A DNA stretch of 64,000 bases from the NCBI RefSeq assembly GCF_030733425.1, contig NZ_JASHIZ010000001.1, positions 186,001 to 250,000 on the forward strand, given 5' to 3'. The DNA is from Roseovarius sp. MMSF_3350 (lineage in GTDB: Bacteria; Pseudomonadota; Alphaproteobacteria; Rhodobacterales; Rhodobacteraceae). Numbering within the stretch: position 1 is the stretch's first letter; each line of letters starts with the position of its first letter. Shown here piece by piece: positions 26,541 through 46,825 of the stretch. A program made the translations under genes and the position numbers. The notes beneath the pieces were generated by a model, which did not search any database, had not been told where the DNA came from, and saw nothing but the letters and a program-made list of their open reading frames with translations.

Positions 26541-26544
26541 CGGG

Positions 26545-26620
26545 GATGAGCCAGGGGCGCCTTCGGGCTGAGATGCACCCTTTGAACCTGACCCAGATCA
26601 TGCTGGCGGAGGAAGGCGCG
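26545..26620 (+). ncRNA. TPP riboswitch (THI element)
   Basis: The conserved aptamer blocks are all present in order: GGGGCGCC (26554-26561), GGGCTGAGAT (26565-26574), then CCCTTTGAACCTGAC and AGATCATGCTGGCGGAGGAA (26594-26614). These match the thi-box helices and TPP-contacting bases. Downstream are two perfect hairpins: CGACCGG/CCGGTCG (26619-26634) and CCTTTCG/CGAAAGG (26642-26661). The second masks AAGG of the thiD Shine-Dalgarno sequence (AAAGGAG, 26657-26663), which points to control of translation start. There is no T-run, so transcription termination is unlikely. Confidence 0.93.
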
Positions 26621-26667
26621 ACCGGAACCGGTCGGACCCAGCCTTTCGACGTCGCGAAAGGAGCCGG

Positions 26668-33004: not shown

Positions 33005-33334
33005 CTGGGCTCTCCTGTGCTTAGTGTCGAAACACATTTCAGGAAGGTTCGTTCCTCGCGCAAGAGGAACTTCTCTGATTGGGCAAAAGCGTCGTTTTCT
33101 CGCGCCAAGGAGATGACGGAGCAGGGACGCGGCCTTGTGACCGGTTCGGGAGCGATCCGAACGGTTTGCCGCAATCGCGGGCGCCCTTGTGCCGGCGGCT
33201 GCGTTCGCGGAGGCGTTGGACGGCGCGTGGGTTTTCACCCACCCTACGTGGCCGGTCGGCGGCATCGCCGCCTCCGGCACCTGGGGCGGGACGGCTTTGC
33301 GTTCGAATGCGCGCCGGGTGGGGTTCGGCCCGGT
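33005..33334. other. 330-base spacer between panB and the ABM gene
   Basis: No coding frame with believable codon use is seen. It contains the promoter of the ABM gene at its left end and the repeat copy at 33225-33248. The rest is GC-rich with several short self-complementary stretches such as GCCGGTCGGCGGC. Nothing else was identified. Confidence 0.5.
33225..33248. repeat. Dispersed repeat with GTGGGT-TTTC-ACCCAC hairpin, copy 1
   Basis: GTGGGT (33227-33232) pairs with ACCCAC across TTTC, followed by CCTACG. The same 23 bases occur at 46748-46770. Both copies lie in spacers 3' to genes. A diverged relative is part of the tandem block near 50130-50155. Confidence 0.7.
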
Positions 33335-40035: not shown

Positions 40036-42861
40036 ATGCTGGATCAGCCCAAACTGGATACCTCGCCCAAGGTGTCCGACGAGGTGCGCAAGACCACCTG
40101 TTACATGTGCGCCTGCCGCTGCGGGATCAACGTGCATATGAAGGACGGCAAGGTCGCCTATATCGAGGGCAACCGCGACCACCCGGTGAACAAGGGCGTG
40201 CTGTGCGCCAAGGGCAGCGCCGGGATCATGCAGCACAACGCGCCGGCGCGGCTGCGGGCGCCGTTGAAGCGGGTCGGGCCTCGGGGGTCGGGCGAGTTCG
40301 AGGAGATCAGCTGGGACGAGGCGCTTGAGATCGCCACGGGCTGGCTGGAGCCCTTGCGGCAGGAGGCGCCGGAGAAGCTGGCGTTCTTTACCGGGCGGGA
40401 CCAGAGCCAGAGCTTCACCAGTTTCTGGGCGCAGAATTTCGGAACGCCGAACTATGCCGCGCATGGCGGGTTCTGCTCCGTCAACATGGCGGCGGCGGGC
40501 ATCTACACGATGGGCGGCGCGTTCTGGGAGTTCGGTCAGCCGGACTGGGAGAATACCAAGCTGTTCATGATCTTCGGCGTGGCCGAGGACCATGACAGCA
40601 ACCCGATCAAGATGGGGATCGGGCGCGTGAAGGAGCGCGGCGCCAAGGTGATCGGGGTGAACCCGATCCGATCAGGGTACAACGCCGTGGCGGACGAATG
40701 GGTCGGGATCACGCCGGGGACGGATGGGTTGTTCATCCTGGCGCTCGTGCATGAATTGCTGCGCGCGGGGAAGATCGACCTGCGGTACCTGGCGGAGTAT
40801 ACCAATGCGCCGGTGCTGGTGAATTGCGATGCCAGCTCGCCGGAGCAGGGCCTGTTGATGCGCGACGCCGATGGCAAGCTCTTGGTGATCGACCGGGCGA
40901 CGGGGGAACCTGCGGCGTTCGACAAGAAGGGTGTGAAGCCGGACCTGTCGGCCAGCTATGAAAAGGATGGCGTGACGCACCGGCCGGTGATGCATTTGCT
41001 GGCCGAGCGCTACATGGGCGAAGAATACGCGCCCGAGGCGGTGGCGGAGCGGTGCGGCGTGAGTGCGCGGCGCATCCGGGCGATTGCTGCGGAACTGGCG
41101 CGGGTTGCCTTCGAGGAAGAGATCGTGCTGGACCGCGAATGGACGGACTTCCGGGGGCAGACACACAAGACGATGGTGGGCCGCCCGGTGAGTTTCCACG
41201 CGATGCGGGGGATCTCGGCGCATTCCAACGGGTTTCAGACCTGCCGGAGCCTGCATTTGTTGCAGATCCTGCTGGGGTCGGTCGAGGTGCCGGGGGGCTT
41301 TCGGTTCAAGCCGCCTTATCCCAAGCCCGTGAGCATCCACCCGACGCCGCATTGCAAGGTGACGCCCGGCAAGCCCTTGGACGGGCCGCATCTGGGGTTC
41401 GTGCGCGGGCCGGAGGATCTGGCGCTGAAGGAGGACGGGACACCGGCGCGGATCGACAAGGCGTTCACCTGGGAGAACCCGATGAGCGCGCATGGCATGA
41501 TGCACATGGTCATCAGCAATGCCCATGCGGGAGACCCCTACAAGATCGACACGCTGTTCATGTACATGGCGAACATGGCGTGGAATTCCACGATGAACAC
41601 GCGCGGCGTGATCGACATGCTGACGGACAAGGGCGACGACGGCGAGTATGTCATTCCGCATATCATCTATTCGGATGCGTATAGTTCCGAGATGGTTGCC
41701 TATTCCGACCTGATCCTGCCCGACACGACCTATCTGGAGCGGCATGACTGCATCAGCCTGCTGGACCGCCCGATCTGCGAGGCGGATGCCGCCGCCGACG
41801 CGATCCGCTGGCCGGTGGTGGAGCCAGACCGGGATGTGAAGGGGTTTCAGACCGCGCTGGTTCTGTTGGCCAACAAGATGGGGCTGCCGGGGTTCACCAA
41901 CGAGGATGGCAGCGCCAAGTGGGCGGACTATGCCGATTACATCGTCAACCACGAACGCAAGCCGGGGATCGGCCCGCTGGCCGGGTGGCGCAAGGGCGAG
42001 GACGGTCTGACCCACGGGCGTGGCGCGCCGAACGAGGACCAACTGGAGAAATATATCGAGAATGGCGGGTTCTTCGTGAACCACATCGCCGAGGAACACG
42101 CCTATATGAAGCCATGGAACATGGGCTATCAGGAGTGGGCGGTGGGTATGGGCCTGTATGACAGCCCGCAGCCTTATATCTTCGATCTTTATGCCGAAAC
42201 GATGCGCAAGTTCCAGCTGGCCGCCGAGGGGCATGGGGAACGGCAACCACCCGAACATCTGCGCGAGCGGATCAAGGCGACGCTGGACCCTCTGCCGGTG
42301 TGGTATCCGCCCTTCGAGGACGGGCATGTGGACCCGGTGGAGTATCCCGTGCACGCGCTGACGCAGCGGCCGATGGCGATGTATCATTCCTGGGGGAGCC
42401 AGAACGCGTGGCTGCGGCAGATTCATGGGCGCAATCCGCTGTACCTGCCGACGAAGATCTGGGAGGCGGAGGGGTTTGCCGAGGGGGATTGGGCGCGTGT
42501 GACCTCAGCGCATGGCGAGATCACGGTGCCGGTGGCGCATATGGCCGCGCTCAATGAGAATACCGTCTGGACGTGGAACGCGATCGGCAAGCGCAAGGGG
42601 GCCTGGGCGCTGGAAAAGGACGCGCCGGAGGCCACGAAGGGGTTTCTGCTCAATCACCTGATTCACGAGTTGTTGCCGCCCAAGGGCGACGGGCTGCGCT
42701 GGGCGAACAGCGACCCGGTGACGGGGCAGGCGGCGTGGTTCGACCTGCGCGTGAAGATCGAGAAGACAGCAGCGCCCGAGGAGGTGCACCCGACATTAGC
42801 GCCGATCCGGTCGCCGGTGGGGACCGGGCCGGACGAGCTGCGCTGGAAGGTGGGCAAATGA
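40036..42861 (+). CDS. soeA: Sulfite dehydrogenase (SoeA-type), molybdopterin subunit
   Basis: A 941-residue Mo-bisMGD enzyme of the DMSO reductase superfamily. The N-terminal 4Fe-4S site is C22-x2-C25-x3-C29-x27-C57. Later blocks include FFTGRDQSQSFTSFWAQNFG, GVNPIRSGYNAVADEWVGIT, HSNGFQTCRSLHLLQILLGS and the C-terminal Mo-pterin domain with MYHSWGSQNAWLRQIHGRNP and HGEITVPVAHMA. There is no twin-arginine signal, so the catalytic subunit faces the cytoplasm, which is the arrangement of SoeABC (cytoplasmic sulfite oxidation) rather than of periplasmic reductases. Its place right after xsc-pta fits oxidation of the sulfite released by Xsc. Formate or polysulfide oxidoreductase is the main alternative. 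GGGAGG precedes the ATG. Confidence 0.85.
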   Translation: MLDQPKLDTSPKVSDEVRKTTCYMCACRCGINVHMKDGKVAYIEGNRDHPVNKGVLCAKGSAGIMQHNAPARLRAPLKRVGPRGSGEFEEISWDEALEIATGWLEPLRQEAPEKLAFFTGRDQSQSFTSFWAQNFGTPNYAAHGGFCSVNMAAAGIYTMGGAFWEFGQPDWENTKLFMIFGVAEDHDSNPIKMGIGRVKERGAKVIGVNPIRSGYNAVADEWVGITPGTDGLFILALVHELLRAGKIDLRYLAEYTNAPVLVNCDASSPEQGLLMRDADGKLLVIDRATGEPAAFDKKGVKPDLSASYEKDGVTHRPVMHLLAERYMGEEYAPEAVAERCGVSARRIRAIAAELARVAFEEEIVLDREWTDFRGQTHKTMVGRPVSFHAMRGISAHSNGFQTCRSLHLLQILLGSVEVPGGFRFKPPYPKPVSIHPTPHCKVTPGKPLDGPHLGFVRGPEDLALKEDGTPARIDKAFTWENPMSAHGMMHMVISNAHAGDPYKIDTLFMYMANMAWNSTMNTRGVIDMLTDKGDDGEYVIPHIIYSDAYSSEMVAYSDLILPDTTYLERHDCISLLDRPICEADAAADAIRWPVVEPDRDVKGFQTALVLLANKMGLPGFTNEDGSAKWADYADYIVNHERKPGIGPLAGWRKGEDGLTHGRGAPNEDQLEKYIENGGFFVNHIAEEHAYMKPWNMGYQEWAVGMGLYDSPQPYIFDLYAETMRKFQLAAEGHGERQPPEHLRERIKATLDPLPVWYPPFEDGHVDPVEYPVHALTQRPMAMYHSWGSQNAWLRQIHGRNPLYLPTKIWEAEGFAEGDWARVTSAHGEITVPVAHMAALNENTVWTWNAIGKRKGAWALEKDAPEATKGFLLNHLIHELLPPKGDGLRWANSDPVTGQAAWFDLRVKIEKTAAPEEVHPTLAPIRSPVGTGPDELRWKVGK

Positions 42862-42980
42862 GCGCGGGACTTTTCTTGGAAGAAAATTGCCAAGACTTTT
42901 TGAAAAGTCTTGGGCGGAAAATGCGTATTTTCCGGCCCATTTTCCGCGCGGAAAATGAGTGCGCGGAGGTGCGGCGGTGA
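42858..42980 (+). CDS. Short 40-codon frame formed by the palindromic element
   Basis: ATG at 42858-42860 overlaps the soeA TGA by 4 bases, and the TGA at 42978-42980 overlaps the GTG of the next frame, so a ribosome could pass from soeA to the membrane peptide through this frame. Most of its codons are made of the palindromes described at 42870-42957, giving a Lys/Arg/Phe-rich product (e.g. RKMRIFRPIFRAENE) unlike normal proteins of this genome. It is probably a coupling relay rather than a functional protein. Confidence 0.4.
   Translation: MSAGLFLEENCQDFLKSLGRKMRIFRPIFRAENECAEVRR
42870..42957. repeat. Cluster of four consecutive palindromes inside the soe operon
   Basis: Four inverted repeats follow each other: TTTTCTT-GG-AAGAAAA (42871-42886), CAAGACTTTT-TG-AAAAGTCTTG (42891-42912, ten pairs), CGGAAAAT-GCGT-ATTTTCCG (42915-42934, eight pairs) and ATTTTCCGCGCGGAAAAT (42939-42956, a perfect 18-base palindrome). 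The last two share the half-site CGGAAAAT. The element is far more AT-rich than the flanking genes. It looks like a REP/BIME-type mobile repeat inserted between soeA and its downstream partner. Confidence 0.85.
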
Positions 42981-43129
42981 GCGGCAAGACCCTGACATTG
43001 GTCGCCATATTGGCGTTCGTGATTTTCGTGGTCGGCACCTTCGCGTGGTTCATCGGCAATTGGAATGCGAGCGAGGACGCGGCCCCGACCGGCGCGGTCC
43101 CAGCCAAGACAGAGGAGCGGCAAGCATGA
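42977..43129 (+). CDS. Small single-span membrane peptide between soeA and soeB
   Basis: A 50-residue frame from GTG at 42977 (preceded by GGAGGTGCGGCG) to TGA at 43127-43129. It has a basic start (SGK), one hydrophobic helix (LVAILAFVIFVVGTFAWFI), then an acidic/polar tail (NWNASEDAAPTG, ending KTEERQA). Its stop overlaps the soeB ATG as ATGA, and its GTG overlaps the preceding frame's stop, so it is built into the translational chain of the operon. Too short for usual gene calls. It may be an accessory subunit or assembly factor of the sulfite dehydrogenase; homologues were not checked. Confidence 0.65.
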   Translation: MSGKTLTLVAILAFVIFVVGTFAWFIGNWNASEDAAPTGAVPAKTEERQA

Positions 43130-43905
43130 CGACGCTTCCCGAGACGACGCAGCGCAAGATGGGGCTGGTGATCGACCTGGATACCTGTGTGGGCTGTCAC
43201 GCTTGCGTGGTCAGCTGCAAAGGGTGGAACACCGAGAATTACGGCGCGCCGCTGAGCGATCAGGACGCCTATGGGGCCGATCCTCGCGGGACGTACCTGA
43301 ACCGGGTGCATTCCTACGAGGTGCAACCCCTGGCGGAAAGCGGGATGCCGCAGCCGGCGGCGCAGCTCATTCACTTTCCCAAGTCGTGTCTGCATTGCGA
43401 GGATGCACCATGCGTCACCGTATGTCCGACTGGCGCCAGCTACAAGCGGGTCGAGGACGGGATCGTTCTGGTGAACGAGAGCGACTGCATCGGCTGTGGC
43501 TTGTGCGCCTGGGCCTGTCCCTATGGCGCGCGCGAGATGGACGCGGCCGAGGGCGTGATGAAGAAATGCACGCTGTGCGTCGACCGGATCTACAACGACA
43601 ACTTGCCGGAGGTGGACCGGGTGCCGGCCTGCGTGCGGACATGCCCGGCAGGGGCACGGCATTTCGGAGATCTTGGCGATCCGGAGAGCGACGTGTCGAA
43701 GCTGGTCGAAGAGCGTGGCGGAATGGACCTGATGCCGGAACAGGGTACCAAGCCGGTGAACCAGTACCTGCCGCCGCGGCCCAAGGACCGCGTCATGGCG
43801 GCGCCGGATGAGCAGATCGACGTCCTGGCGCCGCTTTTGGCGCCCGTGGCCGAAGAACCCAAGGGATTCATCGGCTGGCTCGACAAGGCTCTGGAGAAGA
43901 TCTGA
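43126..43905 (+). CDS. soeB: Sulfite dehydrogenase iron-sulfur subunit (SoeB-type)
   Basis: A 259-residue ferredoxin-like electron-transfer subunit with sixteen Cys in four groups for four 4Fe-4S clusters: CVGCHACVVSCK near 21, CLHCEDAPCVTVCP near 90, CIGCGLCAWACP near 122 and CTLCVDR...CVRTCP near 150-175. This is the DmsB/NrfC/PsrB type that links a Mo catalytic subunit to a membrane anchor. The C-terminal tail (LDKALEKI) is extended beyond the minimal family core. No signal peptide. Coupled to the small membrane peptide before and to soeC after (TGATG). Confidence 0.88.
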   Translation: MTTLPETTQRKMGLVIDLDTCVGCHACVVSCKGWNTENYGAPLSDQDAYGADPRGTYLNRVHSYEVQPLAESGMPQPAAQLIHFPKSCLHCEDAPCVTVCPTGASYKRVEDGIVLVNESDCIGCGLCAWACPYGAREMDAAEGVMKKCTLCVDRIYNDNLPEVDRVPACVRTCPAGARHFGDLGDPESDVSKLVEERGGMDLMPEQGTKPVNQYLPPRPKDRVMAAPDEQIDVLAPLLAPVAEEPKGFIGWLDKALEKI

Positions 43906-44777
43906 TGCATCCTGCACCGTCCGTTATCGTATTCACCACGCTGTCGGGGCTTGGGTTCGGCCTGTTGTTCTGGCTGGGGCTTGGGGTTTTGGTGCCCACA
44001 GGCTGGGTCGCGTTTACCTTTTTCGTGATCGGCTACCTGCTGGCGGTGGGCGGGCTGATGGCTTCGACCTTTCACCTGGGCCACCCGGAGCGGGCGCTGA
44101 AGGCGTTCACGCAGTGGCGGTCTTCGTGGCTGAGCCGGGAAGGGGTTTCATCTGTCGCGGCGCTGATCGTGATGGCGATTTATGGCGCGGGACTGGTATT
44201 CTTCGATACGCGGTGGGTGCTGGTGGGGGTGATCGGGGCGGTGCTGTCGGCGGTGACGGTGTTCACCACCTCGATGATCTACACGCAGATGAAGACCGTG
44301 CCGCGGTGGAACACGCCGCTGACGCCGCTGCTTTACATGTCGACCTCGCTGGCGGGCGGCGCATTGCTGGCTGGGCAGGTGATGATCGCGCTGGTCATGC
44401 TACCCGTGGCGGCGGCGCTGCAGGTGTTGTATTGGCTGCGCGGGGACAAGGCGCTGGAAAAGAGCGGCACGAACCTGGCGACGGCGACGGGGCTGGGGCA
44501 TATCGGCAGCGTGCGGTCGTTCGAGCCGCCGCATACCGGCAACAATTACCTGTTGCGGGAATTCGTCTACGTGGTGGGGCGCAAGCACGCGCAGAAGCTG
44601 CGGATGATCGCGCTCTTGTTCGGATACACGGTGCCGTTCGTCCTGCTGCTGGTGCCGTTTTCGCATATCGCGGCGCTGGTGGCCGTGCTGGCGCATCTGG
44701 GCGGGATCGCGGCGTCGCGCTGGCTGTTCTTTGCCGAGGCCGAGCACGTGGTGGGCCTCTATTACGGAAAGCGCTAG
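43905..44777 (+). CDS. soeC: Sulfite dehydrogenase membrane anchor (SoeC-type, DmsC/NrfD family)
   Basis: A 290-residue integral protein with eight or so predicted helices, of the DmsC family that passes electrons to the quinone pool. The first helix is preceded by HPAPSVIVFTTLSG, the second loop has the conserved HLGHPERALKAFTQWRSSWLSRE, and the end has WLFFAEAEHVVGLYYG, all typical of DmsC-like anchors. It shares one base with the soeB stop. With SoeA and SoeB it would deliver sulfite electrons to ubiquinone. Confidence 0.88.
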   Translation: MHPAPSVIVFTTLSGLGFGLLFWLGLGVLVPTGWVAFTFFVIGYLLAVGGLMASTFHLGHPERALKAFTQWRSSWLSREGVSSVAALIVMAIYGAGLVFFDTRWVLVGVIGAVLSAVTVFTTSMIYTQMKTVPRWNTPLTPLLYMSTSLAGGALLAGQVMIALVMLPVAAALQVLYWLRGDKALEKSGTNLATATGLGHIGSVRSFEPPHTGNNYLLREFVYVVGRKHAQKLRMIALLFGYTVPFVLLLVPFSHIAALVAVLAHLGGIAASRWLFFAEAEHVVGLYYGKR

Positions 44778-46747: not shown

Positions 46748-46770
46748 GCGTGGGTTTTCACCCACCCTAC
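46748..46770. repeat. Dispersed repeat with GTGGGT-TTTC-ACCCAC hairpin, copy 2
   Basis: Identical over 23 bases to the copy at 33225-33248 and placed 12 bases after the peptidase stop, in the gap before a convergent hydrolase gene. The hairpin has six pairs and a four-base loop, with CCTAC after it. Confidence 0.7.
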
Positions 46771-46825
46771 GCAGGGCCTTCGCATCGGGCGCGGCGGGTT
46801 GCGGCGAGAAAAAGCTGGGTGTGGG

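Follow-up and report, generated by a model that had tools for sequence, protein, structure and literature searches.

A cluster of four inverted repeats separates soeA from the following gene of its operon in Roseovarius sp. MMSF_3350, and an open frame of 40 codons that overlaps its neighbours on both sides runs through it. The cluster belongs to a family of hairpin-forming repeats that is dispersed over the genome. From the comparison of related genomes we consider it likely that selection on translational coupling has kept such inserted repeats as relay frames. All coordinates refer to the window, i.e. the whole stretch of 64,000 nt that was analysed (contig NZ_JASHIZ010000001.1, positions 186,001 to 250,000, forward strand).

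The frame begins with the ATG at 42858, in an ATGA overlap with the stop codon of soeA, and ends with the TGA at 42980, in a GTGA overlap with the GTG start at 42977; both other frames of 42858-42980 contain stop codons. A preliminary description, made from the sequence alone, had given these overlaps and their coordinates correctly. It had also noted that the repeat is richer in A and T than the flanking genes, and the GC content, at 51% in the frame and 45% in the hairpin part, is indeed below the 64% of soeA and soeB. The gene after the repeat had been taken for soeB but is a gene of 50 codons (42977-43129); soeB follows it at 43126, again in an ATGA overlap. Stop and start codons are within about -8 to +6 nt of each other at every step (ATGA at 42858, GTGA at 42977, ATGA at 43126). 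The name soe, also from the preliminary description, was not confirmed by NCBIfam, where all matches of the first two genes are below the cut-off and the third is without a match.

40036..42861, plus strand: soeA-like molybdopterin oxidoreductase, the upstream coupled gene (Pfam PF00384, PF04879, PF01568)
42858..42980, plus strand: candidate relay frame of 40 codons across the repeat, with an ATGA overlap at its start and a GTGA overlap at its end; likewise open in L032 and L033
42859..42864, plus strand: left copy of TGAGCG, belonging to the probably ancestral ATGA stop/start overlap (from comparison with the empty site in L034)
42977..43129, plus strand: small gene of 50 codons with one hydrophobic stretch, probably the ancestral ATGA partner of soeA
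42978..42983, plus strand: right copy of TGAGCG (from sequence comparison)
43126..43905, plus strand: soeB-like 4Fe-4S protein, in ATGA overlap with the small gene (Pfam PF13247)

Inserts between soeA and soeB in related species

The soeA-soeB junction was surveyed in the genus, where 57 of 60 places in 60 genomes were used (two pieces of G002 and a weak place in G058 were excluded), and in wider relatives, represented by the best 80 of 588 confirmed places. Among the latter, the best named match is Roseovarius atlanticus. From these 137 loci, L092 and L132 were dropped and 7 exact duplicates were removed, leaving 128 unique junctions. The two genes are directly joined in 28 of them, 34 carry the small gene, 12 are long, and 54 have inserts of another kind, among them hairpin pairs, CTTCTTGCC..CCCGGGG elements and likely remnants. 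Our own genome is counted in the small-gene class and is outside the 54.

Nearly all of the 54 inserts (53, the exception being L110, which has no overlapping start) begin with a start codon that overlaps soeA, and 44 end in an exact 4-nt overlap with soeB, compared to 7.1 expected from shuffled sequences with the start given. The remaining ends are at -4 (2 inserts), -3 (1), -2 (3), 0 (2) and +17 (1), 8 further inserts thus ending at most 4 nt before the start of soeB. Clustering at 55% identity yields about 9.3 relays among 12 clusters (P about 2e-5). As this lumped most inserts (the largest cluster holds 35 of the 54, and at 50% identity all merge into one), the analysis was extended to distinct lengths and to pairs of neighbours. 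The inserts have 27 distinct lengths, and 21 of these are in relay phase (P about 3e-6). There are 15 reciprocal nearest-neighbour pairs, 9 of which differ in length, and in 7 of these 9 the difference is divisible by 3 (P = 0.008). When the count was repeated with different code and the small-gene junctions were included, 73 exact and 82 near ends were found among 90, the outliers being ends at -154, -98, -93, -49 (2) and +17 and two cases without an overlapping start.

Some species have the repeat joined in frame to the small gene, with an end that still lies at or near the overlap (L158 and L070 at +4, L151 at -1). Two short inserts without the repeat (L049, L143) resemble in-frame remnants of the small gene.

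Relay frames at other junctions

Relay-like frames were also found elsewhere in the own genome, in a 400-kb sample together with the window, and two of them were followed through the genus. The sample has 156 co-directional gaps of 10-400 nt, 43 of them with an overlapping start codon, and in 12 of these 43 the frame ends on a possible downstream start; these were counted by hand with a simple gene caller and without a shuffle control, and several of the frames have a TTG start or fewer than 10 codons.

One of the two junctions lies between genes with AAA and VWA_CoxE domains according to Pfam (MoxR-CoxE). From 56 places, 55 were taken (G024, at a contig edge, was left out) and 7 were dropped for want of a downstream match, so that 48 were usable. 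Inserts of up to 260 nt occur in 41 of these, all 41 with an overlapping start, and 36 are relays (ends at -8, -4 or -1), compared to 7.3 expected. The relay in L301 contains tandem 30-nt units; the unit length is a multiple of 3 and the frame survives expansion.

The preliminary description had offered chance and selection as alternatives for the coupled frame. In the first case the insertion would have happened to be in frame, and decay would simply not yet have closed the frame. In favour of this, the soe site taken alone represents one insertion, in three close species with few substitutions, and shuffled sequences yield about 13% relays. Against it stand 44 and 36 relays at two junctions where about 7 each are expected, and distinct insert lengths that are mostly in phase. 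We regard chance as an unlikely explanation, and selection for a coupling relay as the better one.

The rule is not universal. The third junction, between the genes for hydroxymethylglutaryl-CoA lyase and an enoyl-CoA hydratase family protein (NCBIfam, the second just under the cut-off with a partial sequence), was analysed in 30 loci of 57 places, of which 2 were dropped and 28 were usable. The soeB-soeC junction is direct in 74 of 79 relatives, and among its 5 inserts there is one relay and one that ends 1 nt short. Strong retention of relays is thus a property of certain junctions only.

43905..44777, plus strand: soeC-like DmsC membrane anchor, with a TGATG junction to soeB (Pfam PF04976)

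Probable insertion into an ancestral overlap

The insert is present in G052 and G006, which share 98% identity with the own genome in the soeA end (the junction of R. atlanticus, L061, is identical to that of G006). In G034 (97%) the site is empty and reads AAATGAGCGGCAAG, with soeA overlapping the small gene directly. As this direct overlap also occurs in more distant species (L041, L043, L058), the empty state is likely to be ancestral. The filled site, AAATGAGCG...GCGGTGAGCGGCAAG, contains TGAGCG twice, the empty site only once. At this one polymorphic site, the doubling fits a target-site duplication as in a miniature inverted-repeat transposable element (MITE). With TGAGCG on both sides, the ATG of the frame is the old start codon of the small gene, and the two NTGA overlaps appear to have been copied from a single ancestral ATGA.

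That a mobile repeat had landed in the operon, as was first proposed, is supported by this single polymorphic site and by the occurrence of the family in no fewer than 32 places of the own genome. Counter-evidence, according to the preliminary description, would have been an element absent elsewhere in the genome and shared at this site by distant relatives, or relatives with the same junction that lack a coupled frame. Neither turned out to be the case. The element occurs elsewhere in the genome; among the 128 unique junctions it was seen only in the own genome, G052 and G006, distant relatives carrying other inserts; and both insert-bearing relatives keep the coupled frame.

Ten other copies were compared with the same three relatives. 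Eight were alignable (L003, L005, L006, L007, L009, L010, L016, L017; L004 and L014 were not), and all are filled in the aligned relatives, except that in G034 most of the cluster at the L006 site has been lost. Since the other alignable clusters are filled in the relatives, the hairpin family is judged to be old, and only the soe site shows a clean empty allele.

The frame is open in all three insert-bearing genomes (40, 39 and 40 codons) despite an indel of 3 nt. When the own genome is compared with each relative, the changed codons of the frame are 1 synonymous and 6-7 non-synonymous, those of the soeA end 36-38 and 3. Because the changes in the frame are mostly non-synonymous, its peptide is not conserved and shows no sign of purifying selection. 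This bears on the idea that the frame is a genuine gene for a small protein. Start, stop and length would be plausible for one, and the frame has been kept in three species. Besides changing mostly at non-synonymous positions, however, it has no Pfam match, it is absent in G034, and other species have other peptides at the same place, so that a small protein gene is very improbable.

The hairpins and their family

Four inverted repeats lie back to back at the soe site, as had been described, while the arms of the fourth are 10 nt long and not 9.

42866..42891, no strand: inverted repeat 1, 12-nt arms that are 83% complementary, with a 7-bp core TTTTCTT/AAGAAAA
42890..42913, no strand: inverted repeat 2, CCAAGACTTTT..AAAAGTCTTGG, perfect 11-nt arms
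42912..42937, no strand: inverted repeat 3, the family B module (GGAAAATGCGTATTTTCC), 8-bp arms and loop GCGT at 42915-42934
42938..42957, no strand: inverted repeat 4, the family C module (CATTTTCCGCGCGGAAAATG), 10-nt arms without spacer

The pattern CCAAGACTTTT-NN-AAAAGTCTTGG, for which as many as 3 mismatches were allowed, matches the window once (mean of 100 shuffles 0.00); CGGAAAAT-N4-ATTTTCCG also matches once (0.11 expected). RNA folding gives z = -2.72, with 2 of 200 shuffles folding equally well. With regard to terminal inverted repeats as in a MITE, the insert has several internal palindromes, and repeats 1 and 4 are linked by 17-nt arms that match imperfectly (71% complementary) and do not coincide with the ends of the insert. 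As judged by eye, the arms of repeat 1 are perfect and its loops different in L032 and L033. Repeat 4 shows a compensatory change from CCGCGCGG to CTGCGCAG in L032. In Rfam there is no match up to E = 1 for 42780-43060.

A DNA search of the whole own genome revealed many dispersed relatives of the repeat, with stems that vary between copies and are mostly still complementary. Many copies consist of three palindromes in the order A-B-C, with cores GAATTTGCGCAAATTC, GAAAATGCGYATTTTC and TTTTCYGCGCRGAAAA, and occur in either orientation; the soe copy is composed of B and C, preceded by two other hairpins. It had been suggested to count copies elsewhere in the genome. Besides the soe site, the exact unit CGGAAAATGCGTATTTTCCG occurs in three of the 30 own-genome loci examined (L004, L008, L016; L018 and L022 are the soe site again). 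With a covariance model, the family was found at the at least 32 distinct places already mentioned (E up to 1e-3, after merging of places; a lower bound because 150 of 1429 candidates were scored) and in 40 of the 60 genomes of the genus, the own included. The family thus has many dispersed copies able to form hairpins, as do repetitive extragenic palindromic (REP) elements. Of 19 copies in the own genome, 7 (soe included) lie between co-directional, 7 between convergent and 2 between divergent genes, and 3 could not be called.

An alignment of the modules was made from 45 distinct sequences of four genomes, including orthologues of one place. In it, 88.9% of the cells are paired, compared to at most 58.2% in slid controls, and both sides have changed in 171 cells, compared to 57.2 in shuffles. 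Selection of the copies had relied on the core of module B and on partial complementarity of the five pairs next to it, which favours B; modules A and C are free of this bias, and they are paired to 79.0% and 93.6%, with double changes in 9 of 9 and 7 of 9 pairs, respectively. By hand count, only 32 of the 1120 paired cells are G-U, and this scarcity suggests a structure that matters on both strands or in DNA. Automatic detection of hairpins on orthologous clusters was also tried. Of 123 variable cells, 16 were compensatory, 37 otherwise paired and 70 broken, the slid controls giving 5, 192 and 353 of 550; this was noisy, several stems being chance hairpins of the flanks, and the module alignment was used instead.

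The strong covariation and the few G-U pairs raise the question of whether structure itself has been selected, in RNA or DNA. The hairpins would then adjust mRNA stability, or act in attenuation or insulation between soeA and the genes after it, and the open frame would be a by-product. The called copies sit between genes, and stem-loops 3′ of stop codons have been reported to govern re-initiation (PMC7518266). Selection on structure would leave unexplained, however, why inserts of other sequence are in relay phase and why L049 and L143, which lack the repeat, look like in-frame remnants. As the sole cause it seems improbable to us; it is compatible with a relay, and both can act together.

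Proposed explanation

We propose that the ATGA overlap of soeA and the small gene received a copy of the repeat in a recent common ancestor of three Roseovarius species. Sequence comparison shows that the old ATG of the small gene now opens a new frame across the repeat, while the small gene itself starts at the second TGAGCG, which is preceded by G and thus forms a GTG. The frame would be kept open because ribosomes that have finished soeA must restart at once; they would re-initiate at the ATGA, translate and thereby melt the hairpins, stop on the next NTGA and restart there. The peptide would be irrelevant, the passage of ribosomes alone being of importance. The same selection would account for the other inserts at soeA-soeB and MoxR-CoxE, which are nearly always open relays, and insert ends fall on the spacings of -4, -1 and -8 that have been linked to termination-reinitiation (PMC10666635).

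Several points weigh against this explanation. A single clear empty site was found. Related genomes were counted rather than independent events, and the statistics are without a full correction for the tree. Among the 9 neighbour pairs of different length, just 3 are between two inserts, and each of these is in frame; the others involve the small gene, which is a real gene. At MoxR-CoxE the criterion for a relay was fixed after the first batch, in which 24 of 24 inserts were relays; the second batch yielded 12 of 17, with failures at -18, -17 (2), -3 and +30. At the third junction, the 19 inserts include only 4 relays where 1.4 would be expected, and 7 lack a start that overlaps the upstream gene. 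In L033, part of the pairing of hairpin 4 is lost. In addition, a motif resembling a ribosome binding site could permit independent initiation at the GTG:

42965..42969, plus strand: GGAGG, a putative Shine-Dalgarno sequence 7 nt 5′ of the GTG start of the next gene

Because of the second MoxR-CoxE batch and the small number of insert-to-insert pairs, we have graded our confidence in relay frames slightly lower; we still consider them the likely explanation.

More tentatively, and with more doubt than conviction, one may generalize that Rhodobacteraceae routinely keep repeats which land in coupled operons as relay frames that solely carry ribosomes across, the A-B-C cluster and a second element, CTTCTTGCCNNAAATATCCCGGGG, being structures which ribosomes must translate through. 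If so, such frames would provide a genome-wide map of the places where coupling is essential. If the inserts are relays, evolution has run the gap experiment many times, and at two junctions gaps have been tolerated mainly when translatable. Relay frames would give rise to short spurious genes in annotations and would mark operon junctions where coupling matters.

Other features of the window and the relatives

The element CTTCTTGCCNNAAATATCCCGGGG is likewise dispersed, is often followed by a variable hairpin and GGGGCAGCGCCCC, and often adjoins the stop codons of genes. With 3 mismatches it has 33 matches in the own genome; with 2 mismatches, 24-33 matches were obtained in five of six relatives (G010, G001, G019, G024, G005) and 7 in the sixth, G057. 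A reversed control had none. Another dispersed repeat of about 120 nt is located in the right flank of L014 (own genome, C11 about 492941-493061) and occurs at many places each in G034, G052 and G006.

The small protein, with a motif like SFIWFIATWD, is encoded between soeA and soeB in 34 of the 128 junctions, the own included, and in 4 longer ones. A Pfam search with the small gene returned no family. Its hydrophobic stretch is, by eye, a putative membrane helix, and the protein is perhaps an unnamed subunit of the soe complex. In L037, L039, L063 and L090, a gene of about 280 codons, which by eye appears hydrolase-like, separates soeA from soeB and overlaps each of them by ATGA. The window also contains a 24-nt repeat, GCGTGGGTTTTCACCCACCCTACG, with identical copies at 33225-33248 and 46748-46771, and a thiamine pyrophosphate (TPP) riboswitch (Rfam RF00059) at 26543-26631.

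Comparison with known systems

Translational coupling is textbook knowledge. Huber et al. 2023 (PMC10666635) report that a distance of about 20 nt almost completely abolished coupling, and describe a debate between two models, in which the post-termination ribosome either scans across the gap or restarts immediately. According to the review of Brown and Wade 2025 (PMC12548453), coupling is best at -4 to +3 nt, and longer gaps are also coupled in E. coli. The junctions described here share with these termination-reinitiation systems the short spacings, the apparent subunits of one enzyme and the tight need for distance. What sets them apart is the inserted repeat, which stands between the genes and can itself be read as a coupled frame; the coupling would then be relayed.

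Coupling and mobile palindromic repeats with open frames are thus known separately. Among the matches listed in our literature searches, judged mostly by titles and the openings of abstracts, we recognised no paper on this hairpin family or on repeats that persist between genes as relay frames.

Delihas (PMC2229807) has described mobile palindromic repeats whose open frames became part of proteins. The Rickettsia palindromic elements, ERIC, Correia elements and the Yersinia palindromic sequence treated there are, like the soe insert, small mobile palindromic repeats with open frames. Those frames are fused to another frame, whereas the frame here stands apart, between genes, and overlaps its neighbours with a start and a stop codon of its own. 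With REP elements and bacterial interspersed mosaic elements (BIME; PMC2267715) the family has in common that hairpins are dispersed in intergenic regions, its sequence being different and its modules being A-B-C. Hairpins after stop codons that are reported to control re-initiation are known as ribosome termination structures (PMC7518266), and here, too, a hairpin just 3′ of a stop codon would hinder re-initiation. Unlike in those structures, a frame traverses the hairpins of the soe insert and would let the ribosomes pass.

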